A stretch of DNA of 64,000 nucleotides from Streptomyces sp. NBC_01216 (GTDB lineage: Bacteria > Actinomycetota > Actinomycetes > Streptomycetales > Streptomycetaceae). Location of the stretch: contig NZ_CP108677.1 of NCBI RefSeq assembly GCF_035994945.1, positions 186,001 to 250,000 of the forward strand, in the 5' to 3' direction. A model generated the notes under the pieces. That model did not search any database and was not told the DNA's origin. It was given only the letters and a program-made list of their open reading frames with translations. Shown piece after piece: positions 30,213 to 63,424 of this stretch; the first letter of the stretch is position 1; every line of letters starts with the position of its first letter. Both the position numbers and the translations under genes were made by a program.

Positions 30213-30872
30213 ATGAGAAGACTCTCCGCGCGAATCGATTCCTCCGAGGTCGCACCGTACGGGCGGCGGACGTGGACGGCCGGTCCACCACCCACCGGTG
30301 ACGTCCCGACGACCGCCGCGCTAGCCTCGCCGCGCCCCGCGAGCACGGGCGGAACCGGCGCCGGGAGCCGGATCGCTCCGCGCGGGCGGCGCGAGGAGTG
30401 CGGGGCGGCGGACCGCGCGGACGGGACGGCGCTCTACCTGCGCTTCGCCTCGCCGCTCCGCAACGAGCGGGGCCATTTCACAGGGGTGTTCGGACTGGTC
30501 AACAGGCTGGCACGGGAAGGACGCCTGTCCGCGGCGGAAGAGTCCTTCCGCCGGGCCGGCAACCGCTGGTACGACGCCGCCTACCCCGACCCGTCGTCGG
30601 TCGACCCGGCCGTCTACGACGCCGTGAAGAACCCCGGCGCCGCCGCCTGGTTCAAGCCATCGGCGCACCACCTCATCGAGCGCGTCGGCGGCTACCCGGC
30701 GATCCTGGCCGCCCACGCGGTCCCCTGCCGGCCGCTGCGCTGTGCGGACCCGGGCCGGATCGTCTACGAGGACGACGTGCAGATCGTGGTCGTGCCGTAC
30801 GGCGTCTCGTCCCGCCGCCCCTGTGAGGTCGGGGGTGGGTGCCCCGCACGGGGCCGGTCCGGCGCCCCCTGA
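30213..30872 (+). CDS. Conserved hypothetical protein, 5' end uncertain
   Basis: The C-terminal 140 residues look conserved: ALYLRFASPLRNERGHFTGV, FGLVNRLAREGRLSAAEESF, RRAGNRWYDAAYPDPSSVDP, then AAWFKPSAHHLIERVGGY and GRIVYEDDVQIVVVPYG. Relatives appear to begin right at the LYLRF segment, but there is no ATG/GTG/TTG in frame between 30216 and there. ATG 30213 gives 219 aa with a non-conserved N-terminal extension; a GTG at 30398 is out of frame, so a frameshift or non-standard start is possible. The stop TGA lies on the edge of a palindromic repeat (30871-30914). Confidence 0.55.
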   Translation: MRRLSARIDSSEVAPYGRRTWTAGPPPTGDVPTTAALASPRPASTGGTGAGSRIAPRGRREECGAADRADGTALYLRFASPLRNERGHFTGVFGLVNRLAREGRLSAAEESFRRAGNRWYDAAYPDPSSVDPAVYDAVKNPGAAAWFKPSAHHLIERVGGYPAILAAHAVPCRPLRCADPGRIVYEDDVQIVVVPYGVSSRRPCEVGGGCPARGRSGAP

Positions 30873-30914
30873 GGGCCTGTCGGGTGGCCTCCGACCGGGC
30901 GGTCACGCCCTGGC
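30871..30914 (-). repeat. Truncated copy of a dispersed palindromic element
   Basis: GCCTGTCGGGTGGCC followed by a middle part matches the reverse complement of the element at 50600-50667 over about 40 nt with two mismatches; the right arm is missing. It begins on the stop codon of the upstream hypothetical gene. Confidence 0.75.
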
Positions 30915-31030
30915 ACGCGCGGGACGGATCCCGGCCGACCGGTGCGGTGGACGGGGCGCGGCACCGTCGATCCCGCGCGGCACCCCGGAGAAGCCCGCCC
31001 GGCCCGGTGCGTCGGGCGGGCGTGACGCCG

Positions 31031-32263
31031 CTACCGGGGCAGGGTGGACAGGGCCGCGAGCGCGGGGCCGAAGGCCCCGCCCAGCTGGTAACAGAGGTGG
31101 AACAGGCCGATCGCCGTGGGGCGCTGCGCCTCCGGTGCGACTCCGGCCGCGTAGGCGGCGAGCGTGGCGTTGCCGGCGGTCGTCGCGAGGGCCGACAGCG
31201 CGAACGCCGGCAGCAGGAGGGGGACCCAGGGGGTCAGATCGGCGGTGAGCCGCGCGAGCAGGCCGAGGCCGATCAGGAGCGCCACCACCCGGGCCCCGCC
31301 CATCCGGCCGGCAGTGGCGGCCAGGAGCCAGGAGCAGAGGGAGCCCGCGAGGAGGGCGACGAGCTGTCCGGCGCCGATGGCGGCGGTGGACCAGTCCGTT
31401 CGCGCCGCGAGTTGCCCCGGCAGGCCGAAGAGGAGGGTGAAGTACGAGGTGGACAGGGCGCAGGCGAGCAGTGCGCAGAGCGCGAACGCCGGAGTGCGCA
31501 GGAGTGCGGCCGGGAGGAATCCGTCGGGGCGGGCCCGGACGTGCAGCGCCAGCAGCGCGCCGCCCGCCGCCGCCGCGATCGCCGCCGGAAGCGGGTAGCG
31601 GGGGGTCAGCACCAGGAAGCTCGCCAGAGTGGCGAGCAGGGCCGCTCCCCGGGCGTCGAAGGGAGTGGTCGGGGCCGGCGGCGCGGGCGGCGCGGCACGC
31701 AGGGCCGCGGGGAGGGCCAGCAGGGCCGGGACGGAGAGCATCAGCGAGACGCGCCAGCTCAGCGTGTCGGCGATCAGCGACCCGAGGAGCGGGCCGACCG
31801 CAGCGAAGACCCCGAAGCCCATGGCGATGACGCCCATCCGCCGGACCGTACGGGCCAGGCTCATGGCCGAGGCGACGAGCCCGGCTCCGCCGAACGCCTG
31901 GGCCGCCCGGCCCGGCAGGGCGAGCGCCATCCAGGGGGCGAGCGCGACCGCCACCGTGCCCGCGGCGAGCAGGAGGGCGCTGACCCGAAGCGTGGTGCGG
32001 AGTCCCCGGCGGCGCAGCAGGCCCGCCATCAGGGGGGTGCCGACCGCCAGGGCCCACGCGAAGGCGGTGACGAACCAGCCGGCCGTCAGGGTCGTGGTCG
32101 CGAACGACCTGGCGATGTCCGGGAGGATCAGGACCGGGCTGTTGGCTCCCGCCGCCATGGGCGCCGCCAGCAGGGCGGGCCAGAGGGCCGGGATCTCGCG
32201 GCGCGGTGGGGCGGCGGGTGGTGAGTGCGCGGTGAACTCCGCGGCGGCGTCATGGGCAGGCAC
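31031..32263 (-). CDS. MFS transporter
   Basis: 410 aa, 12-TM pattern: LWPALLAAPMAAGANSPVLI, PDIARSFATTTLTAGWFVTA, then LMAGLLRRRGLRTTLRVSAL (loop 2-3 motif) and GIDGRVLGPLLGSL-type helices (MGFGVFAAVGPLLGSLIADT). Similar to Bcr/CynX-like actinobacterial MFS exporters. GTG 32263 is chosen for AAGGGAG 5 nt upstream. It is divergent from a MarR gene, which probably represses it through the dyad at 32290-32305. Confidence 0.88.
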   Translation of the reverse strand: MPAHDAAAEFTAHSPPAAPPRREIPALWPALLAAPMAAGANSPVLILPDIARSFATTTLTAGWFVTAFAWALAVGTPLMAGLLRRRGLRTTLRVSALLLAAGTVAVALAPWMALALPGRAAQAFGGAGLVASAMSLARTVRRMGVIAMGFGVFAAVGPLLGSLIADTLSWRVSLMLSVPALLALPAALRAAPPAPPAPTTPFDARGAALLATLASFLVLTPRYPLPAAIAAAAGGALLALHVRARPDGFLPAALLRTPAFALCALLACALSTSYFTLLFGLPGQLAARTDWSTAAIGAGQLVALLAGSLCSWLLAATAGRMGGARVVALLIGLGLLARLTADLTPWVPLLLPAFALSALATTAGNATLAAYAAGVAPEAQRPTAIGLFHLCYQLGGAFGPALAALSTLPR

Positions 32264-32289
32264 GACGGCTCCCTTGCTCAGAATTAAGA

Positions 32290-32305
32290 ATCTCAACGTT
32301 AAGAT
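32290..32305. promoter_or_regulatory. Operator-like dyad of MFS/MarR pair, site 1
   Basis: ATCTCAACGTTAAGAT is a 16-bp palindrome with one mismatched pair, centred on AACGTT, in the AT-rich 113-bp divergent region. TCAAT-N9-ATTGA at 32330-32348 is a second, weaker dyad. Confidence 0.65.
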
Positions 32306-32376
32306 AAAAGCAGGGAGCCCGGACGGTCGTCAATTGTCTTAGCATTGAGTAATTACTGCCTCGAAGGGAGTCACCC

Positions 32377-32940
32377 GTGGGCGACGCCGTGGACGCGATC
32401 ACCGACCAGTGGACGAAGGAGCGGCCCGACCTGGCGGAACGTCTCTGGCCACTGCATGTACTGGGGCGGCTCCAGCGCCTCGGGCAGGTGCTGGACAAGG
32501 AGTTCAAGGCGTTCGCGGCCGGTCACGGACTCGAACTGGGCGAGGCCGACGTGCTGGCCACGCTGCGGCGGTCCGGATCCCCGTACGAGCTGACGGCGGG
32601 CGCGCTCCTCAGGGAGTCCATGGTGACGTCGGGCGCGATCACCCACCGCATCGACCGCATGGAGACGAAGGGCCTCGTGGAACGGGTGCGCCACGGGGGC
32701 GACCGGCGTACCGTCACCATCCGGCTCACCGATCACGGGCAGCGGCTCATCGACGACTACATCGCCGGCCATCTCGACAACGAGGCGCGACTGCTGCGCG
32801 CGTTCGGCCGGGAGGAGTGCGAGCGGCTCGGCGACGCGCTGCGCACCCTCCTCGAATCGCTGGGCGACACGGCCGAGGGCCGGCGCGCGCACTCCCGGAC
32901 GCGGCGATCCGGCCTGAGCCACCCGGCGGACTCCGGGTGA
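32377..32940 (+). CDS. MarR-family transcriptional regulator
   Basis: 187 aa. wHTH: LELGEADVLATLRRSGSPYE, LTAGALLRESMVTSGAITHR, IDRMETKGLVERVRHGGDRR with the wing TVTIRLTDHG. AAGGGAG lies 6 nt before GTG 32377. Divergent from the MFS gene; likely represses that gene and itself. C-terminal 40 residues are polar and Arg-rich. Confidence 0.9.
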   Translation: MGDAVDAITDQWTKERPDLAERLWPLHVLGRLQRLGQVLDKEFKAFAAGHGLELGEADVLATLRRSGSPYELTAGALLRESMVTSGAITHRIDRMETKGLVERVRHGGDRRTVTIRLTDHGQRLIDDYIAGHLDNEARLLRAFGREECERLGDALRTLLESLGDTAEGRRAHSRTRRSGLSHPADSG

Positions 32941-32986
32941 GACCGCCTCCCAGGGGTCAGCGGGCGCGTTCGGCAGGACACGACGG

Positions 32987-34810
32987 TCAGCGCCGGTCGG
33001 CCTTGTCCAGCTCCTCGTCCAGGGCCATCGCCGCGGTGATCAGCGCGAGGTGGGTGAACGCCTGCGGGAAGTTTCCGAGTTGTTCGCCCGTCGGACCGAT
33101 CTCCTCGGAGAACAGGCCGACATGGTTGGCGTAGGTCAGCATCTTGTCCATCGCGTAGCGAGCCTGCCGCACACGGCCCGCGCGTGCCATGGCGTTGACG
33201 TAGAGGAAGCTGCACAGCGAGAAGGTGCCCTCGGAGCCGCGCAGGCCGTCAGGCGACGCCTCCGGGTTGTAGCGGTACACGAGACTGTCGGTGACCAGCT
33301 CGCGGTCGATCGCGTCCAGGGTGGACAGCCAGTGCGAGGACTTCGGCGAGATGAAGCCGAGCAGCGGCATCAGCAGGAGCGACGCGTCCAGGACGTCACT
33401 GCCGTAGTGCTGCACGAACGCCCCGCGGTCGGGGTTCCAGCCACGCCTCATCACCTGCGTGAGGATGGCGTCCCGGGTGGCCGTCCAGCGCGTCAGGTCG
33501 GCCGGCCGGGCGTACTCGGTGGCCAGCCGGACGCCCCGGTCGAACGCGACCCAGCACATCACCCGGCTGAAGGTGAAGTCCCGGCGCCCGCCGCGGGTCT
33601 CCCAGACGCCCTCGTCGGGACGGTCCCAGTGCGCCGCGAGCCAGTCGAGGAGCGCCGCGAACCCCAGCCACCCTTCGTAACCGGCGAGTTCGGCGACGTC
33701 CGGGGAATGCGTGAGGCCGTACGCGAACTCCCCGTAGATGTCGAGCTGGAGCTGGTCCGCCGCCGCGTTCCCGGCCCGCACCGGGGCGGAGTCGCGGTAG
33801 CCGCTCAGGTGGTCCAGGACCTCCTCGGGGAGCCGGGGGTCGCCGTCGACGCGGTACATGATCTGGAGCGGCTCCCCGCCCGCCGCGCTGGTCGCCCGCA
33901 GGCACCCGCCGAGCCACGCGCGAAAGGCGTCGGCCTCCTCGACGTAGCCGAGGTCGATCAGGACCCGAACCGACAGCGACGCGTCCCGGATCCAGGTGTA
34001 GCGGTAGTCCCAGTTACGCTCCCCGCCGACCTGCTCCGGCAGACCCGTCGTCGGCGACGCGATAGGGGCGCCGGTGGGCGCGTAGATGAGGAGCTTGAGG
34101 GTGATCGCCGACCGGTTGACCATCTGCTGCCAGCGGCCCCGGTAGCGGCAGCGGCCCATCCAGTCGTGCCAGAACCCCATGGTCGCCTCGAACTCCGTAC
34201 GGAAGCCCTCGACGCTCGCCGGCTGGGGCTCGGGAGACCCGGCGGCGCGGGTCTCCAGGAGGATTCCGGCACGCTCCCCCTGTCGCAGGGTGACGGTGGC
34301 CCGCACGTCCTGCCCGTCGGCCACGAGCGGGATGTCGCTCTGGAGGTGGATGTCGAGACCGGGCCCGCGGAAGACGGCCCCCTGTCCTTCGAGCGCGAGG
34401 GTGTGCGCGGCGCGGCCGTAGTCGAACCGCGGGCGGCACTCCAGACCGAAGGTGACGGTGCCGCGGACGACGCGCAGGACCCGCATCAGCCGGCGCCGGT
34501 CGTCGGCCACCTCGGGACGGTCGGCGACCGGCATGAAGTCGACCACCTCCCCCACCCCTTCCGGGGTCAGGAACCGGGTGACCAGCACGGCCGTGTCGGG
34601 AAGGTACAGCTGGCGCACGGTCGTGTCCTCGTGCAGCGGCGCGATCGTGAAGTGGCCACCGCGCTCGGCGTCGAGGAGGGCGGCGAAGATGCTCGGCGAG
34701 TCGAACCGGGGTGCGCACATCCAGTCGACGGAACCCCCGCCGGAGACCAGCGCGGCGCTCTGGAGGTCTCCGATCAGTCCGTGATCGGCGATCGGTGGGT
34801 ACGCACGCAT
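32987..34810 (-). CDS. GH15 glucoamylase/trehalase-like protein
   Basis: 607 aa. Domains: N-terminal trehalase-like/DUF5911 domain (ADHGLIGDLQSAALVSGGGS, VDWMCAPRFDSPSIFAALLD) and a C-terminal GH15 (alpha/alpha)6 barrel (GGERNWDYRYTWIRDASLSV with acidic residues, FVQHYGSDVLDASLLLMPLL, SEEIGPTGEQLGNFPQAFTH). The family includes trehalases and glucoamylases; the final substrate (trehalose or maltodextrin) needs assay. No signal peptide, so cytoplasmic. GAGGG precedes ATG 34810. Confidence 0.92.
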   Translation of the reverse strand: MRAYPPIADHGLIGDLQSAALVSGGGSVDWMCAPRFDSPSIFAALLDAERGGHFTIAPLHEDTTVRQLYLPDTAVLVTRFLTPEGVGEVVDFMPVADRPEVADDRRRLMRVLRVVRGTVTFGLECRPRFDYGRAAHTLALEGQGAVFRGPGLDIHLQSDIPLVADGQDVRATVTLRQGERAGILLETRAAGSPEPQPASVEGFRTEFEATMGFWHDWMGRCRYRGRWQQMVNRSAITLKLLIYAPTGAPIASPTTGLPEQVGGERNWDYRYTWIRDASLSVRVLIDLGYVEEADAFRAWLGGCLRATSAAGGEPLQIMYRVDGDPRLPEEVLDHLSGYRDSAPVRAGNAAADQLQLDIYGEFAYGLTHSPDVAELAGYEGWLGFAALLDWLAAHWDRPDEGVWETRGGRRDFTFSRVMCWVAFDRGVRLATEYARPADLTRWTATRDAILTQVMRRGWNPDRGAFVQHYGSDVLDASLLLMPLLGFISPKSSHWLSTLDAIDRELVTDSLVYRYNPEASPDGLRGSEGTFSLCSFLYVNAMARAGRVRQARYAMDKMLTYANHVGLFSEEIGPTGEQLGNFPQAFTHLALITAAMALDEELDKADRR

Positions 34811-34980
34811 CAATGCCCTCGATTCCTTGGTCGGGACCGGGCGCGGCACACCGCGTCGCTCGCCCGCTCCACGCAACCCGCAGCGGCCGGCGGTGGCAAC
34901 ACGGACCGGCCGATCGGGTGAACCGCGGGACCGGTCCCGGCCGCGACCGCCGGCCCCTGCCCGCGCGGGGGCGTCGGCCG

Positions 34981-36060
34981 TCAGGGTGTGGCCCTCGTGG
35001 TGGCCGACGTCCGGAGGTACTCCGTCTGGTCGGCGAGGAACCCGGCGGCGAAGAGGCCGCGCGGGTCGAGGACGGCGGTCAGCAGCAGACGTGGCCGCGA
35101 GCGTTCGACGTCGTACTCCAGCAGGGAGTGCGTGGCGTGCGGATAGCGTGCGACCCGGAGGGCCGGGGCCGGCAGGAGCGCGCGGTAGCGGGACTCGGTG
35201 TCGGCGACGTCGACGTTGACGTCGTGCCCGGCCAGGACCAGGAGGACAGGCACACCGCGTACCGCACGGAGGTCGGCGGAGGCGTCGGCCGTGTGGTTCC
35301 TCGTGACGAAGCGCCAGCGGGCGGCGGTCATGTCCCGCACGTCGCCGACCGTGTCCCGGTACTCCTCGAATGACGCTCCGCGCCTCAGCAGGTCCAGTGT
35401 CGTCTCGCGCCGGCGCAGAGCGACGGCCGTCTCCTCCGGGGACGCACCCTCCTCCCGCAGTCGCGCCAGGAGGTTGTAGCGCCCCTGCTGCCGCCAGTCG
35501 ACGGCGGGCGAGACGGCGATGACGAACTGGAGGCGTGGGTCCGCGGCCGCCACCTTGGGCAGGACCCAGCCCGCCTGACTGGCTCCCCACAGGCCGACGC
35601 GGCCACCATCGATGTCCGACCGGGCGCGCCCCCACGCCACCGCGGCCAGGGTCTCACGCGCCCGGTCTTCCATGCTCTGGTCGAGCCAGTCGCCCTCCGA
35701 GCCCGCCACCCCGGGCTTGCTGAACGACAGCGAGGCGTATCCGGCGCGGGCGAACGCCTCCCACAGGGGCCGGTAGAACGTCTCGTGCGTCGCGTCGACG
35801 GGCCCGTCTCCGTGGACGAAGACGACCAGCCCGAACGGCCCGTCGCCGCGCTCCGGCCGCGCGAGGACACCGTCGAGCGACCGGCCGTCGTGCCGGAGGG
35901 AGACATGCTCCTCCCGCAGCGCATAGGTGTTCCGCCAGAGCACCACGCCTCCCAGCGCGAGGGTCGTCAGCAGGACACCGACCAGTGTCCACAGCGTCAG
36001 GCGCCACCCGCGGCGGCCTCGTCGCGGGTGGTCGATTCCGCGTCGTCCGTCTCTTGTCAT
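34981..36060 (-). CDS. Membrane-anchored alpha/beta hydrolase
   Basis: 359 aa. Arg-rich N-terminus, then a TM segment at about residues 22-44 (LTLWTLVGVLLTTLALGGVV) and a hydrolase domain: GLVVFVHGDGPVDATHETFY, ASLSFSKPGVAGSEGDWLDQ, GLWGASQAGWVLPKVAAADP (nucleophile Ser in GASQAG), VLAGHDVNVDV (Asp) and HATHSL (His). An extracytoplasmic esterase-like role is likely; the active site faces outside. ATG 36060 has GAGGGG upstream; an ATG at 36075 has none. Confidence 0.85.
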   Translation of the reverse strand: MTRDGRRGIDHPRRGRRGWRLTLWTLVGVLLTTLALGGVVLWRNTYALREEHVSLRHDGRSLDGVLARPERGDGPFGLVVFVHGDGPVDATHETFYRPLWEAFARAGYASLSFSKPGVAGSEGDWLDQSMEDRARETLAAVAWGRARSDIDGGRVGLWGASQAGWVLPKVAAADPRLQFVIAVSPAVDWRQQGRYNLLARLREEGASPEETAVALRRRETTLDLLRRGASFEEYRDTVGDVRDMTAARWRFVTRNHTADASADLRAVRGVPVLLVLAGHDVNVDVADTESRYRALLPAPALRVARYPHATHSLLEYDVERSRPRLLLTAVLDPRGLFAAGFLADQTEYLRTSATTRATP

Positions 36061-36158
36061 CCGGAGCCCCCTCATTCCGTTCAGTTCAATAACGCTCGTT
36101 TCAAGAATGAACGTATTAGACTCGATCGCGCAAGGTCGGACGAAGGAGGAGGAGCGCG

Positions 36159-36797
36159 ATGACGACGGGAAACCCGGGAAGCGGGCCGGTGGTCCGCCGG
36201 GGCGTGCCGGAGGGGAGCGAGCGAGAGGTCGCCGCCCTCTACTGGGAGGCGTTCGGCCGCAAGCTCGGGGCGGCGCTCGGCCCGCCCGGCAAGGCGCGGG
36301 CGTTCCTCGCCGCGCACCTGCGGCACGACCGCGGCGTCACCGCGCTCGCCGGCGGCCGGGTGGTCGGCGTCGCCGGGTACCGGCTCGACGGACGGTCACT
36401 CACCGGCGGAGGCGCCGTGGACGTGCTCGCTGCCTACGGAGCACTCCGCGGGCTGCCGAGACTGGCGCTGCTCGCCCTCCTCGAACGGACCGCGGGCGAC
36501 GCGGAGCTGCTGATGGACGGCATCGCGGTGGACGCCGCGCACCGGGGCGGCGGCATCGGCGGGCGCCTGCTCACGGAGATCGCCGCCGTCGCGGCCGAGC
36601 ACGGCAGCCGGCACATCCGGCTGGACGTGATCGACGTGAACCCGCGCGCCCGCGCCCTGTACGAACGCCACGGCTTCGTCGCCACGCGGACCGAGCGGAC
36701 CCCGTACCTGCGGCGGCTGATGGGATTCGGCGCGGTGACGACCATGCGGCGGCCGGTGACGGCCGCGGACCTCACCGGCGGGCGGGAGGCGCGATGA
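36159..36797 (+). CDS. GNAT-family acetyltransferase
   Basis: 212 aa. Acetyl-CoA motif AHRGGGIGGRLLTEIAAVAA (RxxGxG-type), LDVIDVNPRARALYERHGFV. The N-terminus resembles GNATs with a LYWEAFGRKLGAALG segment. The stop overlaps the ATG of the downstream PaaX-type regulator (ATGA). It is divergent from the membrane-anchored hydrolase; TTCA-AGAA-TGAA near 36100-36111 and TATTAG at 36114-36119 are possible control elements. Confidence 0.87.
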   Translation: MTTGNPGSGPVVRRGVPEGSEREVAALYWEAFGRKLGAALGPPGKARAFLAAHLRHDRGVTALAGGRVVGVAGYRLDGRSLTGGGAVDVLAAYGALRGLPRLALLALLERTAGDAELLMDGIAVDAAHRGGGIGGRLLTEIAAVAAEHGSRHIRLDVIDVNPRARALYERHGFVATRTERTPYLRRLMGFGAVTTMRRPVTAADLTGGREAR

Positions 36798-39286: not shown

Positions 39287-39388
39287 CGGAACCGGCCCCG
39301 ACTCCGTGGCGGGTCCCGCTCCGGACGCCGCCGGGCGGCGGGGTAACCCGCTTGCCCGTCGCGCACGTCCCGTGTGAGGGTGCCGCGC

Positions 39389-41677: not shown

Positions 41678-42262
41678 GGGACTCCTTCTCGTGGGACGCC
41701 CGCCTCTGGCTGCGAGCGCACCCCTCGGTGAGCGTCGGCTGACGGGAGGGTCGGCGCCGCCACTCCCCTGGGGCGGGAAGGCGCCCGCCGGTCCGCCGGC
41801 CTCATGAGCCTAAGGCTGCTCTCGGGCGAGGTGTCCGGACGCCGGCTCTGTCGGGGAGGGGACATGCCTCGGGAACCGGGGGCAGGGGAGTCGAGGCCCA
41901 CAGACCGGCCCGCGCTGTCGCCGCGCGCGCTCGTGGGGTCCGTCGCGGTGCGGCGGTCGGGTCACCGGCGGACTCTCGCCTCCGCACCGGGACCTCAACA
42001 CGCGCATAAAAAGCCATAAAACGACCAGTTACCCTCCAAGGATCAATCTTCCTTTGCTCGCAATTATCGGATGATGTCGGACATTTCTTCCAGGTGACAT
42101 GACTCACGGGCACGCGACCCGGTGACCCGCCCACGGACCCCATCTCCCAGCGTTTCAGGGAGATTCGGGGCCTCCTCCACCTTCGCGGCCCCGCCCGCCG
42201 GCCACTCGGAGCGTCTTGTTATCGACGGCATTTCTCGCCTACGGTCACCTCCATTCGGATGG
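41678..42262. promoter_or_regulatory. Long 5' region before the riboswitch
   Basis: 585 nt with no credible gene; 42000-42080 is clearly AT-richer than its surroundings. TTGTTA (42216-42221) and TACGGT (42240-42245), spacer 18, form a good promoter just ahead of the riboswitch. The stretch from 41690 to 42200 is unexplained and could hold distal control sites. Confidence 0.5.
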
Positions 42263-42426
42263 AACGCCGAATCCTGCCACCATCCGCAATTCCCACTATT
42301 CACCGCCGGCAGGAGCGGGGGACCCATGTATTCGCCGGTCCGGACTCCGGAACGGCTAGGGGTGAAGTCGCACCTGTGCGACCGGGCATCTCCAGCCCGA
42401 ACCCGACAGCTCACCCCGCAGGCGCC
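42263..42426 (+). ncRNA. ydaO/yuaA c-di-AMP riboswitch
   Basis: Conserved blocks of the ydaO-yuaA family are visible: CGCCGAATCCTGCC, then GGCAGGAGCGGGGGACCCA, GGGGTGAAGTCG, and the 3' core CCCGAACCCGACAGCTCACC followed by CCGCAGGCG. The family binds c-di-AMP and commonly controls cell-wall hydrolase and K+ genes. It ends about 16 nt before the start codon of the LysM/SLT gene. High c-di-AMP is expected to switch expression off. Confidence 0.9.
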
Positions 42427-42442
42427 GGAGAGGAAATCCGTC

Positions 42443-43309
42443 ATGCCTGCAAACGGTAAGCACCGACGCCCGAAGCGTCGCCCGCTCGCCCGTGGTATCG
42501 CCCTGATCAGCACGGGTAGCGCCGCCCTGACGCTTCCGCTGGTCGCGTCCGCCACCGCCCACGCGGCTCCCGAGATCACTCCTGCCATTGCCACGGCTAA
42601 CGCCGCCGCAAATGTCTCTCAAAAGATCACGGAATCCCTTCCGGCGGCACCCGCCACCACCCCAAAGACGTACACCGTCGCGCCGGGGGACTCTCTCTCG
42701 ATGATCGCTTACGAACAGGGCGTCCGAGGCGGTTGGAAGGTTCTCTACCGCGCCAATCACGACGCGGTCGGTGACAATCCGTCACTTATTCATCCCGGGC
42801 TCAAGCTGACGCTTCACCGGAATTCCACAGCGGCCAAGCCGAAGTCCTCCGCACCCGCGCAGAAGACGAAGACGAAGACGGCCGAGCCGGCACAGGCCAC
42901 GTCCACCGACCGGGCCAGCCGATCCCAGCAGCGCACCACCCCCGCGCCGCAGACGCAGGCCGCCGCTCCCGTCGCGGCCAAGAACTACACGAACGACCTC
43001 GACGGCTGGATAAGGGAGTCGCTGGACGTGATGGCCCAGCACGGCATCCCCGGCTCCTACGAGGGAATCCACCGCAACATCATGCGCGAGTCCTCCGGCA
43101 ACCCGCAGGCCGTGAACAACTGGGACTCCAACGCTGCGGCCGGCACCCCCTCGAAGGGCCTGCTGCAGGTCATCCAGCCGACGTTCCTCGCCTACCACGT
43201 GCCCGGTACGTCCATGGACCTGTTCGACCCGGTCGCCAACATCACCGCCGCCTGCAACTACGCGGCCGACCGCTACGGCTCCATCGACAACGTCTTCGGC
43301 GCCTACTGA
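42443..43309 (+). CDS. Secreted LysM + SLT lytic transglycosylase-like cell-wall hydrolase
   Basis: 288 aa. Signal peptide (basic MPANGKHRRPKRRP, then a hydrophobic core and AHAAP cleavage), LysM at about 75-120 (YTVAPGDSLSMIAYEQGVRG, NHDAVGDNPSLIHPGLKLTL), a Lys/Thr/Pro/Gln linker, and an SLT-type domain at about 190-288 with IMRESSGNPQAVNNWDSNAA and GLLQVIQPTFLAYH (Glu catalytic, GLLQ motif). It likely cleaves peptidoglycan. GGAGAGGAAATCC lies upstream. The gene is controlled by the c-di-AMP riboswitch, tying wall remodelling to second messenger. Confidence 0.93.
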   Translation: MPANGKHRRPKRRPLARGIALISTGSAALTLPLVASATAHAAPEITPAIATANAAANVSQKITESLPAAPATTPKTYTVAPGDSLSMIAYEQGVRGGWKVLYRANHDAVGDNPSLIHPGLKLTLHRNSTAAKPKSSAPAQKTKTKTAEPAQATSTDRASRSQQRTTPAPQTQAAAPVAAKNYTNDLDGWIRESLDVMAQHGIPGSYEGIHRNIMRESSGNPQAVNNWDSNAAAGTPSKGLLQVIQPTFLAYHVPGTSMDLFDPVANITAACNYAADRYGSIDNVFGAY

Positions 43310-43344: not shown

Positions 43345-43383
43345 TCAGAGCCTGTCGGGTGACCTTCGATCGACAGGCTCTCA
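43345..43383. repeat. Compact copy of the palindromic element
   Basis: CAGAGCCTGTCG-GGTGACCTTCGAT-CGACAGGCTCT: 11-bp arms with 13-nt loop. The left arm extends into GGGTGACC like the other copies, but the inner part has collapsed. It sits after the hydrolase gene and could also help termination. Confidence 0.7.
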
Positions 43384-50443: not shown

Positions 50444-50862
50444 GAGCCGTCCCGTCGTCCACAGCGGGTCGACGCGGCGTGGGACGCGGCACGTCGCGGG
50501 GCGGCGGGTCGGCCTCGTACGGGGCGCACGCGATCCGACAACGCCGCGTGGTGCCGTGGCCGGCCTCGTGCGCCCTTCGGGGATGACGGGACAGCCCTGA
50601 GAGCCTGTCGGGTGGCCGTCGATCGCCAGGGCGTGATCGCCCGGTCAGAGGCCACCCGACAGGCTCTGAGCTGGCGACGGCTCCCCGACACCGGCAGGCC
50701 GACGGACCGGGCCGGGGAGCCCTGGCGGTGAGCGGGGCCGGTGAACCGGGAAGACGCGGGAATTCCTGGGCGGCAGGCGGGACGACGGCGGCATTCGACA
50801 TTCGGGCGTCCACGCGCCGCGCGTTCCGCGACGGACATCCCATACGCGGTGATAATCCGCGT
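50444..50862. other. Intergenic region with palindromic element
   Basis: 419 nt with no credible gene. It holds the element at 50600-50667 and the USP promoter palindrome at 50841-50865; the rest is featureless. Confidence 0.5.
50600..50667 (+). repeat. Full palindromic (MITE-like) element
   Basis: AGAGCCTGTCGGGTGGCC (50600-50617) and GGCCACCCGACAGGCTCT (50650-50667) are perfect 18-bp terminal inverted repeats around a 32-nt middle that contains GGGCG-TGAT-CGCCC. Related copies lie at 30871, 43345 and 63408. No transposase is present. Confidence 0.85.
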
Positions 50863-56416: not shown

Positions 56417-56452
56417 GAGGCCCCTGGTCACGGGCCCGCGGGGAGCCGATAC

Positions 56453-56668: not shown

Positions 56669-57001
56669 TTCATACCCCCGTATCGTCAGAGCCGTTCCCC
56701 GGCCCGTCCAGTCCTCAAGGTAGGCGGAGACGAACGCGAGGATCAAGGCTTCCGCCGCGGGTCCTCTCGTGCCGTACGGCACCCCTCGCGTCCCCGACCG
56801 GAGCCACCTCGCCGGGGGGCGGTGGTCACCCGGTCGGCTGCGTGTCACTGGTCGCGGCCGTGGGGCGGGGCGAGGCTGGAGCAGCTGACACCGCCCCGGT
56901 GACGAGCGGTCGCCCCGCTTCCCGGCGCCGGACGCGCGACCGCCCCGGTCCGACGTGCGGGCGGGGCGGTCGGATGCACTCCGTCAGGGGTGCGAGGTCG
57001 C
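56669..57001. other. Intergenic region
   Basis: 333 nt. Besides the hairpin at 56938-56973, I see only frame shadows. It must contain the promoter of the 71-aa membrane protein. Confidence 0.4.
56938..56973 (-). terminator. Terminator of the cyclophilin gene
   Basis: CGACCGCCCCG / CGGGGCGGTCG: 11-bp perfect stem, 14-nt loop, 28 nt beyond the stop of the minus-strand cyclophilin gene. Confidence 0.65.
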
Positions 57002-57505
57002 TCAGGCCTTGTCCTCGACGACGCCGGAGGCGGCGACGGCGATCTTGGCCGTGGTGGCACCGGAGCGGGAGCCCAGGGCCTCGATCTTCTTGACCAGTTC
57101 CTGGCCCTCGACGACCTCGCCGAAGACGACGTGCTTGTTGTCGAGCCAGTCGGTCACGACCGTGGTGATGAAGAACTGCGAGCCGTTGGTGTGGGGACCG
57201 GCGTTCGCCATCGACAGAAGGTACGGGCGGTCGTGCTTGAGCGTGAAGTTCTCGTCGGCGAACTTCTCGCCGTAGATGCTCTTGCCGCCGGTGCCGTTGC
57301 CCCTCGTGAAGTCGCCGCCCTGAAGCATGAACTGGGGGATGACGCGGTGGAACGGCGAGCCGGCGTAGCCGAAGCCGTGCTCACCGGTGGCGAGCTCACG
57401 GAAGTTCTTCGTCGTCTTCGGGACGACGTCGTCGAACAGCTGGAAGACGATCCGGCCGGCCGGCTCGTCGTTGATGGTGATGTCGAAGTACACGTTGTTG
57501 CTCAT
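57002..57505 (-). CDS. ppiA: Peptidyl-prolyl cis-trans isomerase (cyclophilin)
   Basis: 167 aa, normal for single-domain cyclophilin. [20 protein letters not shown] includes the catalytic Arg, and NGSQFFITT and [10 protein letters not shown] are canonical. It has no signal peptide, so it is cytoplasmic and assists protein folding. AGGATG lies ahead of the ATG. Confidence 0.97.
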
Positions 57506-57649
57506 GGGGACATCCTGTCATTCCCGTCCCGCGCTCGCGCGCACGGGCTGCCGTGTGTGGGCAGGTACCCGTCCCGCGCTTCACCCGGCTGACCGATCGG
57601 CCGGGCAACACCGGTCCCCCGGCCGGGGGACCGGGCGCCCGAGGAGCCG

Positions 57650-57868
57650 TCAGGCCGATGCCTCGCCGCCGAGGACGTCCAGCGCGCCGCCCGCAGGAAG
57701 CGGAGCGGTCTCTTCCAGAAGGGAGCCGAGGGCGGTGTCGTTCTGGAGGAGACCCGTGGTTCCCGCGACGGCTCCGGTGTCGGCGGAGGCGTTCGGCGGC
57801 GGGGTGACGAGGGCCGTGACGACACCGGCCGCGAGGGAGGCGATGGCGAGCATGCTGCGCTTCTTCAT
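57650..57868 (-). CDS. Small secreted protein (72 aa)
   Basis: MKKRSMLAIASLAAGVVTAL then VTPPPNASA-DTGAVAG: a clear Sec signal peptide, leaving about 42 residues rich in Leu, Gly and Ala (LLQNDTALGSLLEETAPLPA). No Cys and no chaplin motif. Function unknown. Confidence 0.65.
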   Translation of the reverse strand: MKKRSMLAIASLAAGVVTALVTPPPNASADTGAVAGTTGLLQNDTALGSLLEETAPLPAGGALDVLGGEASA

Positions 57869-58002
57869 GCCCTGGTCAACTGCCGAGGGGCCCCGGGGGT
57901 TACGGTCTCCTTCCGATCCGGTCGCCCGACGGAGAGCCCCGGTCACGATGACGCTCGTGAGACGGGACGTTCAGCGCCCGCCTCGGCCTCGGGCCGGCCG
58001 GG

Positions 58003-58968
58003 TCAGCCCCTCCCACCCCGGGGCCCGCGCCACCTCCGGGTGGGACCGCGGCCAGGTCCGGTGTCCGGGCCGCGCGGTGGCGTGTGCGTGGGGTCGATCG
58101 GCGGGTAGTCGGGCGGCAGGCGCACCAGCCGGCGCCGGATCAGACGCTCGTGGGCCAGACGTCCGACCATCGCACCCCCGTACACCACGAAGCCCACTCC
58201 GACGAGCCAGGATTGCAGGACCAGGACCGTGCCGAACTGACCGTAGGTCACCGCGTTGGAGGCGATCAACGGGGAGAAGACGAACTGGGAGAAGACCCTC
58301 AGGCCGAGCAGCCCGAGAGCCGTGCACAGCGCGCCCGGGGCCAGCGCGCGCCAGCGGATACGTCCACACAGCAGGAAACGCTGCGACCACCAGAAAAAGA
58401 GGAAGGTGCCCACCACGTCTCCGAGGGTGACGAGGACGGTGACCGCGGCGGGGACGTCCTCGGGTGGTGGGCCGGCGACGAAGAGCAGCAGGGCCGCGAT
58501 CAGGACGGCGAGCCAGACGACGTGACGCCACATGGTGTGCCAGCGGGCGGTGGACAGGTCCCAGGCCCGCTCGTACCCGGTCTGGACGGCCGACCCGAAG
58601 GTGACGCCGAACGCGGCCAGCGCGGCGAGTCCGAAGGCGGTGGTGCGCTGCAACGCCTGGCCGGGCTTGCCGAAGAGTTGCTCGACCTCCTCCTGCGACA
58701 CCTCCGAGACGCCGAGCCCCTGGACGAGCCAGCGGGCGAAGCCCTGCCCGCTGGAGAGGTCGGCGGCGGCCACCACGATGAGCAGCGGCACGAGGGTGAG
58801 CAGGCTGAGCGCCGCGAACCCCATCGACCGGTGCATGAGCTCCATCTCCCGCCCGCGGTTCCAGGCGAGCCCGACGACGGAGGTCCGGACGGCCCGGTGG
58901 TACCGCCGGAGGCGGTGACCGGAGTCGGCGGAGGGGCGGTCGCGGGAGGCGCCGGAGGTGGGGGGCAT
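58003..58968 (-). CDS. YihY/BrkB family inner-membrane protein
   Basis: 321 aa. Six TM segments; MGFAALSLLTLVPLLIVVAA and VTLGDVVGTFLFFWWSQRFL are typical of YihY (formerly ribonuclease BN). N-terminal RRYHRAVRTSVVGLAWNRGR is the amphipathic conserved region. The function is unknown. Start ATG 58968 chosen to drop a non-conserved extension. Confidence 0.88.
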   Translation of the reverse strand: MPPTSGASRDRPSADSGHRLRRYHRAVRTSVVGLAWNRGREMELMHRSMGFAALSLLTLVPLLIVVAAADLSSGQGFARWLVQGLGVSEVSQEEVEQLFGKPGQALQRTTAFGLAALAAFGVTFGSAVQTGYERAWDLSTARWHTMWRHVVWLAVLIAALLLFVAGPPPEDVPAAVTVLVTLGDVVGTFLFFWWSQRFLLCGRIRWRALAPGALCTALGLLGLRVFSQFVFSPLIASNAVTYGQFGTVLVLQSWLVGVGFVVYGGAMVGRLAHERLIRRRLVRLPPDYPPIDPTHTPPRGPDTGPGRGPTRRWRGPRGGRG

Positions 58969-59050
58969 GCCACGGAGCGTTCCCGCCGGAAGCCGGGAAC
59001 CCTCCGCGGTGCCGCCGAACGGGTGCGGCCGCCGTGCCGCGGGAGCGGAT

Positions 59051-59524
59051 TCAGCGGACGAGGGGGCGGGCGGCGGGGCCGGGGCGGACCGAGACGTCGA
59101 AGGGGCCGAGGGCGGCACGCTCCTCGCCCTCACACAGGACGACGACCCGGACGGGCTCCCCGCAGCGCGTGTGCCGGATCTCCAGCGTGGGCCCCTCGGG
59201 GGCGCCGTGATGCGTGTCGCCCCACTGCGCGAGGGACAGCAGCACCGGCCAGAGGTCGCGCCCCTTGGCGGTCAGCCGGTACTCGGACCGGGTACGGGCT
59301 CCGGGCTCGCGGTAGGGCTCGGCTCGCAGGACGCCGGCGCCGACCAGCTTGCGCAGCCGGTCGGCGAGGACGGCCTCCGACAGGCCGAGGTGGCGCCGGA
59401 ACTCGTCGTAGCGGCGGACGCCGTTGAAGGCGTCGCGCACGATCAGCAGGGACCACTTCTCGCCGACGACGTCGAGCGCGCGGCGGACCGGGCAGTTCTC
59501 GGTGTCGATCTCCAGCCACTCCAT
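59051..59524 (-). CDS. HxlR-family transcriptional regulator
   Basis: 157 aa. NCPVRRALDVVGEKWSLLIV has the HxlR/YodB hallmark Cys and helix, then VRRYDEFRRHLGLSEAVLAD (wHTH). HxlR proteins often sense electrophiles or aldehydes by Cys modification. The thioesterase gene is divergent 109 bp away, so it is the probable target. Confidence 0.92.
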   Translation of the reverse strand: MEWLEIDTENCPVRRALDVVGEKWSLLIVRDAFNGVRRYDEFRRHLGLSEAVLADRLRKLVGAGVLRAEPYREPGARTRSEYRLTAKGRDLWPVLLSLAQWGDTHHGAPEGPTLEIRHTRCGEPVRVVVLCEGEERAALGPFDVSVRPGPAARPLVR

Positions 59525-59553
59525 CAGCCCACCCTACCGGGCTGGCTTCGTCG

Positions 59554-59583
59554 TTGACAGTCAGCTGATGCGCCCTCTAACTT
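59554..59583 (+). promoter_or_regulatory. Promoter of the thioesterase gene
   Basis: TTGACA (59554-59559), 18-nt spacer, TAACTT (59578-59583). TCAGCTGA at 59561-59568 is a perfect 8-bp palindrome in the spacer, a candidate HxlR operator. Confidence 0.7.
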
Positions 59584-59633
59584 CGATCTTCACAGCCGAC
59601 CGGCGCCGGTCGGGCGGAACGGAGCGAAATACC

Positions 59634-60122
59634 ATGAAGCGGTCACGCACGGTCGAGTGGGAGGACGCCTCGGTCACCGCGAGCGCGGTGGGGACCATGG
59701 CGGGCCTCGACTTCCTGCGGGAGCTCGCGGCCGGCCGGTTGCCCGGCCCGCCCGTGGGAGCGCTGCTCGGTTTCACCCTGCTGGAGGTCGACCACGGCCG
59801 GGCGGTGTTCTCCTTCGAACCGGGCGAGCAGCACTACAACCCGATCGGCAGCGTGCACGGCGGGGTCTACGCCACCCTGCTGGACTCGGCGGCCGGATGC
59901 GCGGTGCACTCGACGCTGCCTCGGGGCACGGCGTACACCTCTCTGGACCTGTCCACCCGCTTCCTGCGCCCGATCACGACGGACACCGGCACGGTGCGCG
60001 CGATCGGCACGGTGATGAGCCGGGGCCGCCGCACTGCGCTCGCCGAGGCGGGACTGTACGACGCCTCCGACCAGCTCCTCGCGCACGCCACGAGCACCTG
60101 CATGCTGTTCCCCGTGGAGTGA
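59634..60122 (+). CDS. PaaI-type thioesterase (hotdog fold)
   Basis: 162 aa. HYNPIGSVHGGVYATLLDSA contains the HGG...D signature of PaaI-like acyl-CoA thioesterases, followed by TSLDLSTRFLRPITTDTGTV. It hydrolyses aromatic or fatty acyl-CoA; substrate unknown. Divergent from the HxlR gene, which probably regulates it from the promoter at 59554-59583. Confidence 0.9.
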   Translation: MKRSRTVEWEDASVTASAVGTMAGLDFLRELAAGRLPGPPVGALLGFTLLEVDHGRAVFSFEPGEQHYNPIGSVHGGVYATLLDSAAGCAVHSTLPRGTAYTSLDLSTRFLRPITTDTGTVRAIGTVMSRGRRTALAEAGLYDASDQLLAHATSTCMLFPVE

Positions 60123-60254
60123 GGCGGCGGGACCGGCCCGCACGGGAGGGAGCACGGCCGACGGGGTGAGCCGCCCCGGAGGACGCATCCGTGCGGATCG
60201 TCGCCCGCCGGCGCCGACGGGACGCTTCGCCGGCGGCCGGTCTCCGGCGCCCCG

Positions 60255-60623
60255 TCAGAGGCGGCCCAGCACGCGGCGGGTGCGCGTGCAGTCGTCCGGC
60301 AGGGTGTTCAGTCCGCGGGTGGATGCCTGGAGCGCGGCGCTGACCAGGGTGGCCAGCAGGTCGATGTCGGAACCCATGTCCAGATGGACCGTCACCCAGC
60401 CCGAACCCGCCCGGAGCCGTACGGCACTCGATCCCAGCAGGGCCGGCCGCAGTCTCGCGATCATGATCCGGGTGAGGTGCACGTCCGCCTCGTGTTCGCC
60501 GTGGAAGTGGACGATCTCCTGCGTGGCGGTGCGCAGACCGAGCTCTGCGCCGCACCGGGCGCGGTCGGCGGTCAGCGAGGGCCAGCTCATCAGACGTTCA
60601 CTGGCGTGCCTGGCTGTGTTCAT
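60255..60623 (-). CDS. Luciferase-family (DUF5519-like) protein
   Basis: 122 aa. RCGAELGLRTATQEIVHFHG, EHEADVHLTRIMIARLRPAL, SGWVTVHLDMGSDIDLLATL match actinobacterial proteins annotated as luciferase domain proteins (DUF5519-type). No flavin site is visible, and function is unknown. The strand beyond 60623 continues open but without conservation, so the ATG at 60623 is preferred. Confidence 0.72.
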   Translation of the reverse strand: MNTARHASERLMSWPSLTADRARCGAELGLRTATQEIVHFHGEHEADVHLTRIMIARLRPALLGSSAVRLRAGSGWVTVHLDMGSDIDLLATLVSAALQASTRGLNTLPDDCTRTRRVLGRL

Positions 60624-60870
60624 ACCCAGGAGCGTGCCGGGACCGGGGACCCGACACAAGCGTCCTGGCGAAAGAATTCCGCCGAGGCGGGAATTCGACT
60701 GTCGTGACGTCACGGGGCGACACCGGAGCGGTGCGCACGGTTCCCGAACGCCCCTGTCCAGAGCCCGGATCGACCCTCCTGCCGGGCCACCGCAGGACGC
60801 GTCCGGACAGCTGTGCGAGACGGCCGGAATCCCGCCCCGGCTCCGGCGTCGGACCTGCCCGGCCCCCCCT

Positions 60871-60978
60871 CGCGCGGCGTACTCGGCGGCGCTCGTCCGC
60901 GACAGTCTGAGCGGGCTCCTCAAGTACCGGGACGACATCGTCAGGGCAGCCGCCGAGCTCGCCCTGGACGCGATGTGA
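60871..60978 (+). pseudogene. Gene remnant, possible C-terminus of a MoxR-like ATPase
   Basis: An in-frame segment without a start, AAYSAALVRDSLSGLLKYRD then DIVRAAAELALDAM, ends at a TGA at 60976-60978. It reads like the terminal helices of an AAA protein and lies 36 nt before a damaged CoxE-like gene; MoxR-type ATPases usually sit next to CoxE. Assignment is weak. Confidence 0.3.
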
Positions 60979-61014
60979 GCGCGCCCGGCGGGACCGCCCG
61001 CGCGGCCCGACGGG

Positions 61015-61628
61015 ATGTCCCGCCCGCGGGCGGAGGCGGACGGCGGGTCCGAGGCGCGGGGGCCCGGGGACCGGCTCACTGGTCTCGTGCACGCGCTGCG
61101 GGAGCACGGCGTCGCGGTCGGCACCGGCGAGACCGTGGACGCGGGGCGGCGCTGGAGGCGGTCGGGTTCGCGGACCGGGAGCGGATGCGGGAGGCCCTGG
61201 CGGCCACACTGCTGCACCGGGAAGGACAGCGGACACTCTTCGACCAGGTGTTCGACCTGTACTTCCCGGCGTCGACCGGTGGCCCGGCAGCGGGCATCCT
61301 CGCGGAGGCCGGGCTGACCGGCTGGCACGGGCAGAGCCACTACGGGACGGCACTGGCCGGATTCGCCGATCGGTACCCCGACGCGGTAGGTCCGCGCACC
61401 GCCGTCTTCATCCTGGGTGACGCCCGGACGAACAGCACCGACCCCCGCCCGGCCGCGCGGCAGATCGCGGACCGGGCCCGCATGGTCTGCTGGCTCAACC
61501 CCGAGCCCCGCTCGCCGTGGTCGACGGGTGATTCGGTGGCGCTTCTCTACGCCGAACCGGTCGAGATGCACCCGTGCCGGAACGCGCGCGAGCTCGGCGA
61601 CCTCGTCGGCCGCGTGATGCCCCTCTGA
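61015..61628 (+). pseudogene. Decayed VWA/CoxE-like gene (frameshift plus internal deletion)
   Basis: The first part, GDRLTGLVHALREHGVAVGT then GETVDAG, is in frame 1 and matches the CoxE N-terminus. The coding frame shifts near 61141-61146, and AALEAVGFADRERMREALAA, LFDQVFDLYFPA follow in frame 3. Then the sequence jumps straight to GLTGWHGQSHYGTALAGFAD, RTAVFILGDARTNSTDP and RARMVCWLNPEPRSPWSTGD, the C-terminal VWA part. Roughly 150-200 residues of the middle are missing. It is a pseudogene, sitting near the ATPase remnant at 60871. Confidence 0.72.
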
Positions 61629-61865
61629 GCAGCGGCACGAGCCTCCGTGGGCGGGTGGACTGCGGTGGCTCCGGATTCCCGGGTCGCCTCGCGCGGGTCC
61701 GGCCGGCTCCGGCCCGCTCTGGCACAGACGGCCGCTCGGACCGATCCTGGAAGGGAGGGGCGGGGAAGCCCGGGGCGGTGAAGGACAGGCCGCGGTGCGG
61801 AGCGTCGCGGCCGGGAGCATACGCGTTGGCCGGGGCGGCCCGGCGGTCGCGGTGGGTGAGGTGTG

Positions 61866-62234
61866 ATGGCGCGCGTCGTGATCGACGACACGGACCTGGT
61901 GGTCCGGCTGTCCCTCCGCGAGACACTGGGAGCCCGCCGTCGCGAGGTACGGGTGCCCCTGGCGGCCCTTCGCGAGGTGTATGTCGAACCGGACTGGTGG
62001 CGGGCGCTGCGGGGCCGCTGCGGCAGAGGCATGTGGGTACCCGGTCGCCTGTGCGTGGGTGTCCGCCTCCTCCCCGACGGCAGGGACTTCGCGGTGGTCC
62101 GGGAGGGTGCCCCGGTGGTGTGTGTCGAACTGCGCCGGAGCGCGCCGTACGGCCGCCTGGCGGTCTCCGACCCGGACCCCGAGGGGGTGCTCGGCGCACT
62201 CCTGCCGCACGTCCCGGCCGACCGACTCGGGTGA
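61866..62234 (+). CDS. Conserved hypothetical protein (122 aa)
   Basis: Begins MARVVIDDTDLVVRLSLRET then VRVPLAALREVYVEPDWWRA, GRGMWVPGRLCVGVRLLPDG, APVVCVELRRSAPYGRLAVS. It has a beta-rich, PH-like (bPH) feel with WW and Cys residues; no function known. GAGG lies close to ATG 61866; GTG 61863 is immediately before it. Confidence 0.72.
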   Translation: MARVVIDDTDLVVRLSLRETLGARRREVRVPLAALREVYVEPDWWRALRGRCGRGMWVPGRLCVGVRLLPDGRDFAVVREGAPVVCVELRRSAPYGRLAVSDPDPEGVLGALLPHVPADRLG

Positions 62235-62300
62235 CCGACGCGGTCGGCCGGTCCGTCCGGACGCGACGGGCGGAACGGAGGTGGGGCGGGGCAGGGCGGT

Positions 62301-62504
62301 TCAGGCGGGGCTGACGTTCTCGGCCTGAGGGCCCTTCGGCCCCTGGACGACATCGAACTCGACCTGCTGGCCCTCTGCGAGTTCCCGGTACCCGGTGGTG
62401 GCGATGGCCGAGTAGTGGACGAACACGTCCGGGCCGCCGCCGTCCTGGGCGATGAAGCCGAAGCCCTTCTCCGCGTTGAACCACTTCACTGTGCCGGTTG
62501 CCAT
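62301..62504 (-). CDS. cspA: Cold shock protein
   Basis: 67 aa. The CSD RNA-binding motifs KGFGFIAQD (RNP1) and VFVHYSAI (RNP2) are present, with the canonical [10 protein letters not shown] start. It binds single-stranded RNA/DNA and works as an RNA chaperone. AAGGAG lies 8 nt before the ATG. No cold box could be located with confidence. Confidence 0.97.
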
Positions 62505-62696
62505 GATGATCTCCTTCTTGGGGCGGGAGCGACTCCCGCGGTGCGCGCCCGGCCGGCGGCCGCGGTTCGCGGCCCGCGGCGGACCGCACACCTCCATGGT
62601 CCCTCTTTCCGGCCGGGACGTTCCAGCGGCCGCTCCCGGACCTTCCCGTCCGGGACCGGCTGTACGGCGCGGGGCGGGCCGAACTAGCGTGGCCCC

Positions 62697-63281
62697 ATGG
62701 AACTCATCGGAGAGATCGCGGCCGACCGACCCCTGCTCGTACTGGCCGTCAAGGAAGAGGCGCAGTTCCTCGACACGGACCTGCCGATCCTGCTCACCGG
62801 CATGGGCAAGGTGAACGCGGCCATCGCGCTCGCGAGCACCCTCGCCGCGGGTCCGCGGCCGACCGGAGTCGTCAACCTGGGCACGGCGGGCGCACTGCGT
62901 ACGGGCTGGACCGGGACACATGTGGTGGGCACGGTGCTCCAGCACGATCTCGACGGTGAGCTCCTGGCGACGCTGACCGGTGAGACATACGGGGAACCGT
63001 TGACGCTGCCGGACGGGGGTGACGTCGTCCTCGCCACCGGTGACGCGTTCATCTCCGAGGAAGCCGCGCGCGTCCGGCTGGCCGCACGGGCCGCACTGGT
63101 CGACATGGAGGGGTACGCGCTGGCGACGGCCGCCGCCACGGCCGGCGTTCCGCTGCGGATCGTCAAACACGTCAGCGACGAGGCGGGCGACGGCGCCGCC
63201 CGGACCTGGCGGGAATCGGTGGCCGAGTGCGCACGGGCCCTGGCGGAGTGGGCCGAGCAGAACACCCCGTACCGCTCCTGA
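62697..63281 (+). CDS. Nucleosidase (MTA/SAH nucleosidase-like, PNP fold)
   Basis: 194 aa. [11 protein letters not shown] (Gly-rich PNP motif), [32 protein letters not shown] (MEG active-site Glu) and [11 protein letters not shown] are the family signatures. It hydrolyses N-glycosidic bonds of purine nucleosides or adenosyl compounds. TAGCGT (62685-62690) is 6 nt before the ATG, so it is probably leaderless. Confidence 0.85.
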
Positions 63282-63407
63282 GGCAACCGCCCGCCCTGGC
63301 CTCCGAGCGGGCCCCGGACCGCACGCCGCGGCCGGGGGGGCGAGGCCGGCCGAGTGGGCGCGGCGGCGCGGGCGGGTGTCTACCGGTGCGCGGGGCGGGT
63401 GCGCGGC

Positions 63408-63424
63408 TCAGAGCCTGTCGGGGG
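63408..63424 (-). repeat. End of the palindromic element in the GlxA-type gene
   Basis: TCAGAGCCTGTCGGGG (63408-63423) matches the element's left end for about 15 nt and encodes the stop and last residues (DRL-stop) of the AraC-like gene. The inner part and right arm are not present. Confidence 0.6.

Follow-up and report, generated by a model that had tools for sequence, protein, structure and literature searches.

A family of miniature inverted-repeat elements at gene 3' ends in Streptomyces sp. NBC_01216, probably moved in trans by IS5-family transposases

The window analysed in this work is a 64,000-nt stretch of Streptomyces sp. NBC_01216 (contig NZ_CP108677.1, positions 186,001 to 250,000; G000:C1:186001-250000 in our numbering; genome 7.72 Mb). 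It carries four copies of a short palindromic repeat, which we assign to a family of miniature inverted-repeat transposable elements (MITEs). The original prediction had placed this repeat at four loci and given it perfect terminal inverted repeats (TIRs) of 18 bp. We scanned the window for the 18-mer with up to 3 mismatches. Six matches were found, compared with a mean of 0.13 and a maximum of 2 in shuffled sequence, which puts the repeat at these loci above chance. One of the six, at 11953 (3 mismatches), is probably due to chance, and only four copies were detected by all scans together.

Two of the copies have both ends and are listed without a strand. The 66-bp deletion form (50601-50666) lies between TGA 50598-50600 and TGA 50667-50669, 157 bp past the end of the upstream plus-strand gene, and its RNA fold has an energy of -57 kcal/mol (z -8.4). 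Its inverted ends are perfect as predicted, and the actual TIR is 17 bp long, the 18th base being part of the target duplication. The 33-bp minimal form (43348-43380) lies between TCA 43345-43347 and TCA 43381-43383 and consists of the left hairpin fused to the right end; this is the collapsed copy that had been predicted at 43345-43383. It sits between the stop codon at 43307-43309 and a terminator-like hairpin (judged by eye). The predicted truncated copy near 30871-30914 was also found, on the plus strand, as a single end (GGGCCTGTCGGGTGGCCTCCGACCGGGCGG...) running from 30873 to about 30914. It directly follows TGA 30870-30872, the stop codon of the upstream plus-strand gene, and a scan of the locus found no far end. 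The single end predicted near 63408-63424 proved to be a 12-bp remnant on the minus strand (63411-63422), the weakest and least certain of the four copies. TCA 63408-63410 beside it is the stop of a minus-strand regulator gene, presumably of the AraC type, whose last four codons (PDRL) are encoded by the remnant.

The repeat is abundant in the whole genome, where the 18-mer with up to 2 mismatches gave 335 matches (172 + 163) and the reversed pattern used as control gave two (1 + 1). For the family structure we sampled six 400-kb blocks (2.4 Mb), with genes taken from our own codon-usage caller rather than from the annotation. From 94 candidates in the sample we retained 82 elements, and both ends were present in 65 of these. 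The elements end in GAGCCTGTCGGGTGRCC and are 163 bp at full length, with deletion forms down to 33 bp. Among the 65 two-ended elements, 26 are of 33 bp, nine of 48-52 bp, four of 77-79 bp and 11 of 163 bp, and the remaining sizes occur singly. The CGACAGGC direct repeats in the left hairpin and the right end would offer the simplest explanation for the repeated collapse from 163 to 33 bp, namely deletion between them. As in a MITE, the full-length form is non-coding, with a 17-bp TIR and a mean column identity of 90% over 20 copies. Hairpin energies of the elements range from -22 to -110 kcal/mol. The 20-mer end with at most 1 mismatch was found in 21 of 392 genomes of the genus, with 202 matches in the own genome. 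Two full-length MITEs stand in tandem at G000:C1:2934265 and 2934431, 166 bp apart and with one TCA common to both, which can reflect either insertion at the earlier copy's duplication or unequal crossing-over. A MITE query matched no phage record.

The flanking triplets point to target-site duplication. The own set gave 81 scored pairs, many of them degraded or mispaired, with 15 TGA/TGA, 11 TCA/TCA and two mixed. The other-species set comprised 120 listed stretches, many from S. anulatus NRRL B-2873 and Streptomyces sp. NBC_01669, and all other-species element counts below hold among the matches listed. In 80 such pairs, TCA/TCA occurred 34 times, TGA/TGA 27 times and mixed triplets twice. 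Where both sides read TSA, the two triplets agreed in 26 of 28 pairs from the own genome and in 61 of 63 from other species. The triplets are related directly and not inverted, which marks them as a target duplication and not as part of the TIR. The outer bases in the own set were C before the triplet (65/73) and G after it (61/74), so that the target reads CTSAG.

Empty sites were seen in relatives. The window copy at 43345 is missing in relative G064, which among the matches listed is the one genome matching across both sides of that copy; the empty site there reads CCA, not TCA. An S. anulatus copy (L286) is missing in strain McG3, with flanks 95-96% identical on both sides. The own-genome orthologs of three S. 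anulatus insertions (L286, L313 and L344) are without the element and have the stop codon at an unchanged place. For another insertion (L250) the alignment with the own ortholog was unclear, and at L269 an old element is present in both.

Full insertion sequences (ISs) with the same ends were found as well. A 1,015-bp IS (L314) in NBC_01669 has TGA/TGA flanks and 303 codons open from stop to stop, and one of its ends has one mismatch to the MITE end. NBC_01669 carries many MITE copies and is among the strains with the most stretches among the matches listed. Copies 98% alike to L314 occur on plasmids of NBC_01240 and NBC_01238 and are annotated as IS5 family transposase. Another IS sharing the MITE ends (L184, in G220) encodes a transposase that matches NF033580 (IS5 family) at 208.9 bits (cut-off 110) and has the domains PF01609 and PF13340. 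A second end type, CTAGGGCCTGTCTGG, belongs to three plasmid ISs of 1,071-1,098 bp; in one of them two reading-frame pieces match PF13340 and PF01609 (IS4/5-type families). The MITE ends are thus common to autonomous ISs (L314, L184 and the plasmid copies), and both L184 and the second end type go with a DDE transposase of the IS5 family.

The partner ISs agree with IS427/IS1031-like members of this family in TIRs, transposase, size of about 1 kb and open reading frame (ORF) layout; the IS427 members described in the part of the source available to us are about 1 kb with one ORF or two (PMC3281130). The duplication here is TSA, while IS427 elements mostly have 2 bp in the rows of Table 2 available to us (PMC3281130). 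IS5-family ISs carry a transposase whereas the MITEs carry no gene, and we place the partners at the level of the family, not of the subgroup. For IS1031 the target rule is 'TNA'.

On contig C1 of G220 the IS (L184, L204) is present in opposite orientations near the two ends, at distances of about 20 kb and about 12 kb, an arrangement like that of a linear chromosome with long terminal inverted repeats. At L181 (G258:C20:66276-67783), about 1.5 kb is bounded by perfect copies of the MITE ends with TCA on both sides; the left side is IS-like, the open frame inside is unrelated and no intact transposase was seen. The L184-type transposase was found in one of 150 genus genomes (E 1e-90), with internal stops, and had no match by sequence in the PDB. 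Six inward end pairs of the own 2.4-Mb sample, 0.5-3.5 kb apart, were considered as possible ISs and rejected, as all have MITE-type inner sequence and none of the 22 transposase matches in the own genome lies between them.

Taken together, these data make it very likely that the repeat is a family of MITEs and that IS5-family (DDE) transposases mobilize it in trans. Target duplications and an IS with the same TIR had been among the checks proposed, and both, along with the empty orthologous sites, favour mobilization in trans as far as sequence comparison goes. The transposase would cut at CTSAG and duplicate TSA, the duplication itself being seen in the sequence. Since TGA is read as a stop on one of the two strands, insertion at C-TGA-G would leave the stop intact in the near duplicate, and a stop kept intact after insertion was seen against the orthologs. 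Some observations weigh against this explanation. The own 163-bp copies (n=11) are only 80-94% identical to each other, so the burst is not fresh, and a recent expansion in the own genome is ruled out. No cognate IS was found in the own genome, where the best of 22 transposase matches was 49% identical and no such ends were seen at the 22 loci, so that present mobility here is at most putative. Finally, the flanking triplets disagree at L184 (TCA/TGA) and at the plasmid copy that was read (TTA/TGA). We are confident in the MITE interpretation all the same, and much less so in a function of the core described next.

The elements are built around a hairpin core of about 93 bp that is kept while the ends differ; the original prediction could not see that its ends are one of several types around a common inside. 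When plasmids were searched with a 163-bp copy, mainly the inner part was matched (8 of 10 records), and in two of four such places that were read, other inverted ends surrounded it. The core query matched in 75 of 150 genus genomes (BLAST, E 0.001, 6 candidates scored per genome), a count not like for like with the 21 of 392 for the ends, which were sought more strictly as a near-exact 20-mer. Among 40 core copies examined, TIRs with 15-18 of 18 positions matching were present in 34, of which four were of this MITE's type and 30 of others. The other types include CTAG-GGCCTGTCGTCAAACTG, CTAG-GGCGTGTTTTGAAAGT, CTAG-GGCCTGTCTGGGGTTG, AGAGCCTGTGTCA, AGAGCCCCGAACAAAATGGG, AGAGTTGCGGACAAAAGGGG and more; a plasmid search with the AGAGCCTGTGTCA end gave no match.

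A covariance model of the core (E 1e-4) found it in 28 of 197 genomes of the class and 8 of 90 genera, with 14 genomes from the own genus and 14 from seven others. Twenty of these places were read (8 own genus, 12 others): 14 had inverted ends, in 4 none was found and 2 look spurious. Core-bearing elements underwent separate bursts in genomes of other genera, with 17 core matches in G446 and 18 in G456. The motifs CAAGGCG and CAACGC, in or beside the internal loop, occur in nearly all core copies (exceptions include L425, L431, L439 and L447). In the core alignment, 13 of 33 base pairs and 40 cells carried double changes, against a mean of 11 after shuffling and against 5 pairs and 9 cells in the best slid version. 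This conservation together with the compensatory changes suggests constraint on the core hairpin, acting on it either as DNA or as RNA in the 3' untranslated region (3'-UTR). Hairpin-templated repair is able to mimic covariation in palindromes and counts against this suggestion.

Since two end types match those of different IS5-type ISs, the core has probably switched from one transposase partner to another, whether through end capture or through co-diversification. That the ends diversified gradually with their transposases around one vertically inherited core, with no swapping of ends, is a realistic possibility that we rate slightly less likely than not. The end types have a loose GG-C-TGTC pattern in common, and they grade into each other: 29 TIRs form 13 single-linkage clusters when 13 of 15 positions have to match, 9 at 12 of 15 and only 5 at 11 of 15, where clusters merge. 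Such grading fits gradual co-diversification as well as swapping. The clustering covers the TIRs other than those of L310, L398, L399, L410 and L413; the script-reported TIRs of L410, L413, L442 and L446 are doubtful, and the singleton L415 probably begins inside its true end, so that each cluster count may be too high by one. Against purely gradual change, a comparison of 18 chosen end types gave a mean core identity of 87% (minimum 76%), while the ends reach only 57% in the best 14-mer register versus 48% when shuffled. The two end types also match different transposase layouts, one ORF versus two.

The predicted location at or near gene 3' ends and on stop codons could be quantified. Of the 82 own elements, 48 have the adjacent gene's exact stop codon as their duplicated triplet, and so do 59 of the 104 elements from other species (24 further ends, duplicates or too near a locus edge, were dropped). 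A caller-independent codon-score test placed 48/82 own and 62/104 other elements on a stop, compared with 321/2457 unoccupied CTSAG sites. The odds ratios (own), occupancies and convergent-region counts given here are based on the own elements other than the 11 of 82 that overlap a called gene. For stops versus non-coding CTSAG sites, the odds ratio was 3.8 in the own set (p 1e-7) and 2.1 in the others (p 0.003). Without divergent regions it was 3.1 and 1.8 (p 0.03 for the latter), or 3.3 in the own set with gaps shorter than 6 bp discarded.

Occupancy fell with distance past the gene 3' end, from 46/315 at the stop and 13/81 at 1-30 bp to 4/70 at 31-80 bp, 3/77 at 81-160 bp and 3/245 beyond, with 2/154 where there was no 3' end. 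In percentages, occupancy is about 15% within 0-30 bp of the 3' end and about 1% at distances above 160 bp. Two of these results speak against the stop codon as such: 34 of the 82 own elements are off any stop codon, and exact stops show no excess over CTSAG 1-30 bp downstream (0.146 versus 0.160). Because both kinds of site are equally full, the bias is for gene 3' ends and not for the codon, and pure stop-codon specificity is ruled out. The stop codon is the commonest CTSAG position at gene 3' ends.

If the near triplet encodes an amino acid instead, the reading frame frequently continues for four codons into the element end and terminates at GAGCCTGTCGGG-TGA, with tails such as EPVG-stop. 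Such four-codon tails were seen in 5 of 7 own cases (plus one 11-codon tail and one without a stop) and 4 of 5 others. For IS or unclassified single ends with one side tested (a small sample, n=12), L314 and L188 follow frames open over all 199 codons examined, with a G+C content at third codon positions (GC3) of 0.93 and 0.95; the L270 end follows an open frame too (GC3 0.68), and the remaining nine follow no such frame.

Other-ended core elements behave similarly. In 28 of them (the 40 core copies other than L310, L398, L399, L400, L410, L413 and the six without detected TIRs), a stop overlaps the end in 14, a gene end lies within 60 bp outside or inside in 5 and further away in 3, and 6 have none. 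Elements with CTAG at the end were on a stop in 9 of 14, versus 64 of 321 non-coding CTAG sites in the own sample, a rough control as the genomes differ. At L403 and L411, frames from both sides terminate in TAG at the element.

The near-exclusive location at or just past gene 3' ends would mainly reflect purifying selection, and the further excess near 3' ends may come from target preference or retention. A somewhat doubtful yet tenable alternative is that selection does not act alone and that the transposition complex actively targets 3' ends, guided by terminator hairpins, supercoiling or the termination zone. In convergent intergenic regions, where promoters are unexpected, stops were occupied in 24/136 and other CTSAG in 7/117, with 3/24 at 1-30 bp, 3/22 at 31-80 bp and 1/71 beyond 80 bp; the stop overlap of the other-ended core elements points the same way. 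However, selection against breaking terminators and unannotated elements could yield the same gradient, and the stop excess is only 2-4 fold, weakest in the other species without divergent regions.

A broader proposal is tentative, and we consider it less probable than its opposite. In it, an actinobacteria-wide modular element would have the covarying core, with its nearly invariant CAAGGCG/CAACGC internal-loop motifs, as the selected unit. It would take the ends of any IS5-type transposon at hand, settle at gene 3' ends via stop-containing targets (CTGAG, CTAG) with the duplication rebuilding the stop, and act as a 3'-UTR RNA or DNA hairpin.

REP/BIME elements (repetitive extragenic palindromic sequences and bacterial interspersed mosaic elements) are 3'-end extragenic hairpins in hundreds of copies, and linkage to a gene for a REP-associated tyrosine transposase (RAYT) is expected for them. 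It is improbable that the present repeats are host-maintained palindromes of this kind, with a functional hairpin, spread by RAYT or gene conversion. The 3'-end location, copy number, strong hairpins and covarying core are alike; the 3-bp TSA duplications and the TIRs common to DDE ISs are unexpected for REP spread, and REP elements are not known to have a target duplication. Non-mobile intrinsic terminators of common ancestry would fit the 3'-end location and the hairpin energies and are highly improbable, since the repeat shows target duplications and empty sites in relatives, is in high copy number in few genomes, has a copy (43345) between a stop and a terminator-like hairpin, and is followed by no U tract at any of the four window copies read.

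In Rfam, searched with the window and the element loci, no element reached a gathering score, and six matches at E 0.03-0.4 were far below theirs. Separate from the present finding, a c-di-AMP riboswitch (RF00379, 78.4 bits) lies at 42255-42439 on the plus strand, upstream of the gene 3' end that precedes the 33-bp element. In the titles and abstract beginnings covered, no description of the repeat was found, and its end sequence was in no paper; most subscription papers lie outside this coverage, which makes it weak evidence of newness.

Among known systems, RUP (Streptococcus pneumoniae, IS630-Spn1) and Correia/NEMIS (Neisseria) are described, in the part of the source available to us, as non-autonomous, shorter than 200 bp and mostly intergenic, with IS-like TIRs, target duplication and hairpin transcripts (PMC2229807). 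The present MITE resembles them in being small, non-autonomous and mostly intergenic, with IS-like TIRs and a target duplication. It differs in being G+C-rich, in its target (CTSAG/TSA, theirs being TA), in the majority of copies lying on stop codons and in the inner core kept across several end types. The same part of the source mentions stop codons inside the elements and no duplication of a gene's own stop (PMC2229807). MITEAba12 of Acinetobacter is a bacterial MITE related to the full IS ISAba12, and one of its insertions fuses a gene to a premature stop, as far as the accessible part of the source goes (PMC6382973). In contrast, the gene's stop is rebuilt at its own place here.

Landing on stops and rebuilding them shows a low-cost route to hundreds of copies in a gene-dense genome; in the 2.4-Mb sample, the 46 of 315 occupied stops are C-TGA-G stops adjoining a non-coding gap. 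For annotation, some C-termini are rewritten by the element (tails EPVG-stop and PDRL-stop). The mRNA would gain a strong hairpin at its 3' end from copies that adjoin a stop. Conservation in MITEs is expected at the ends; with a core kept while the ends differ, the role of a MITE's inside becomes directly testable.

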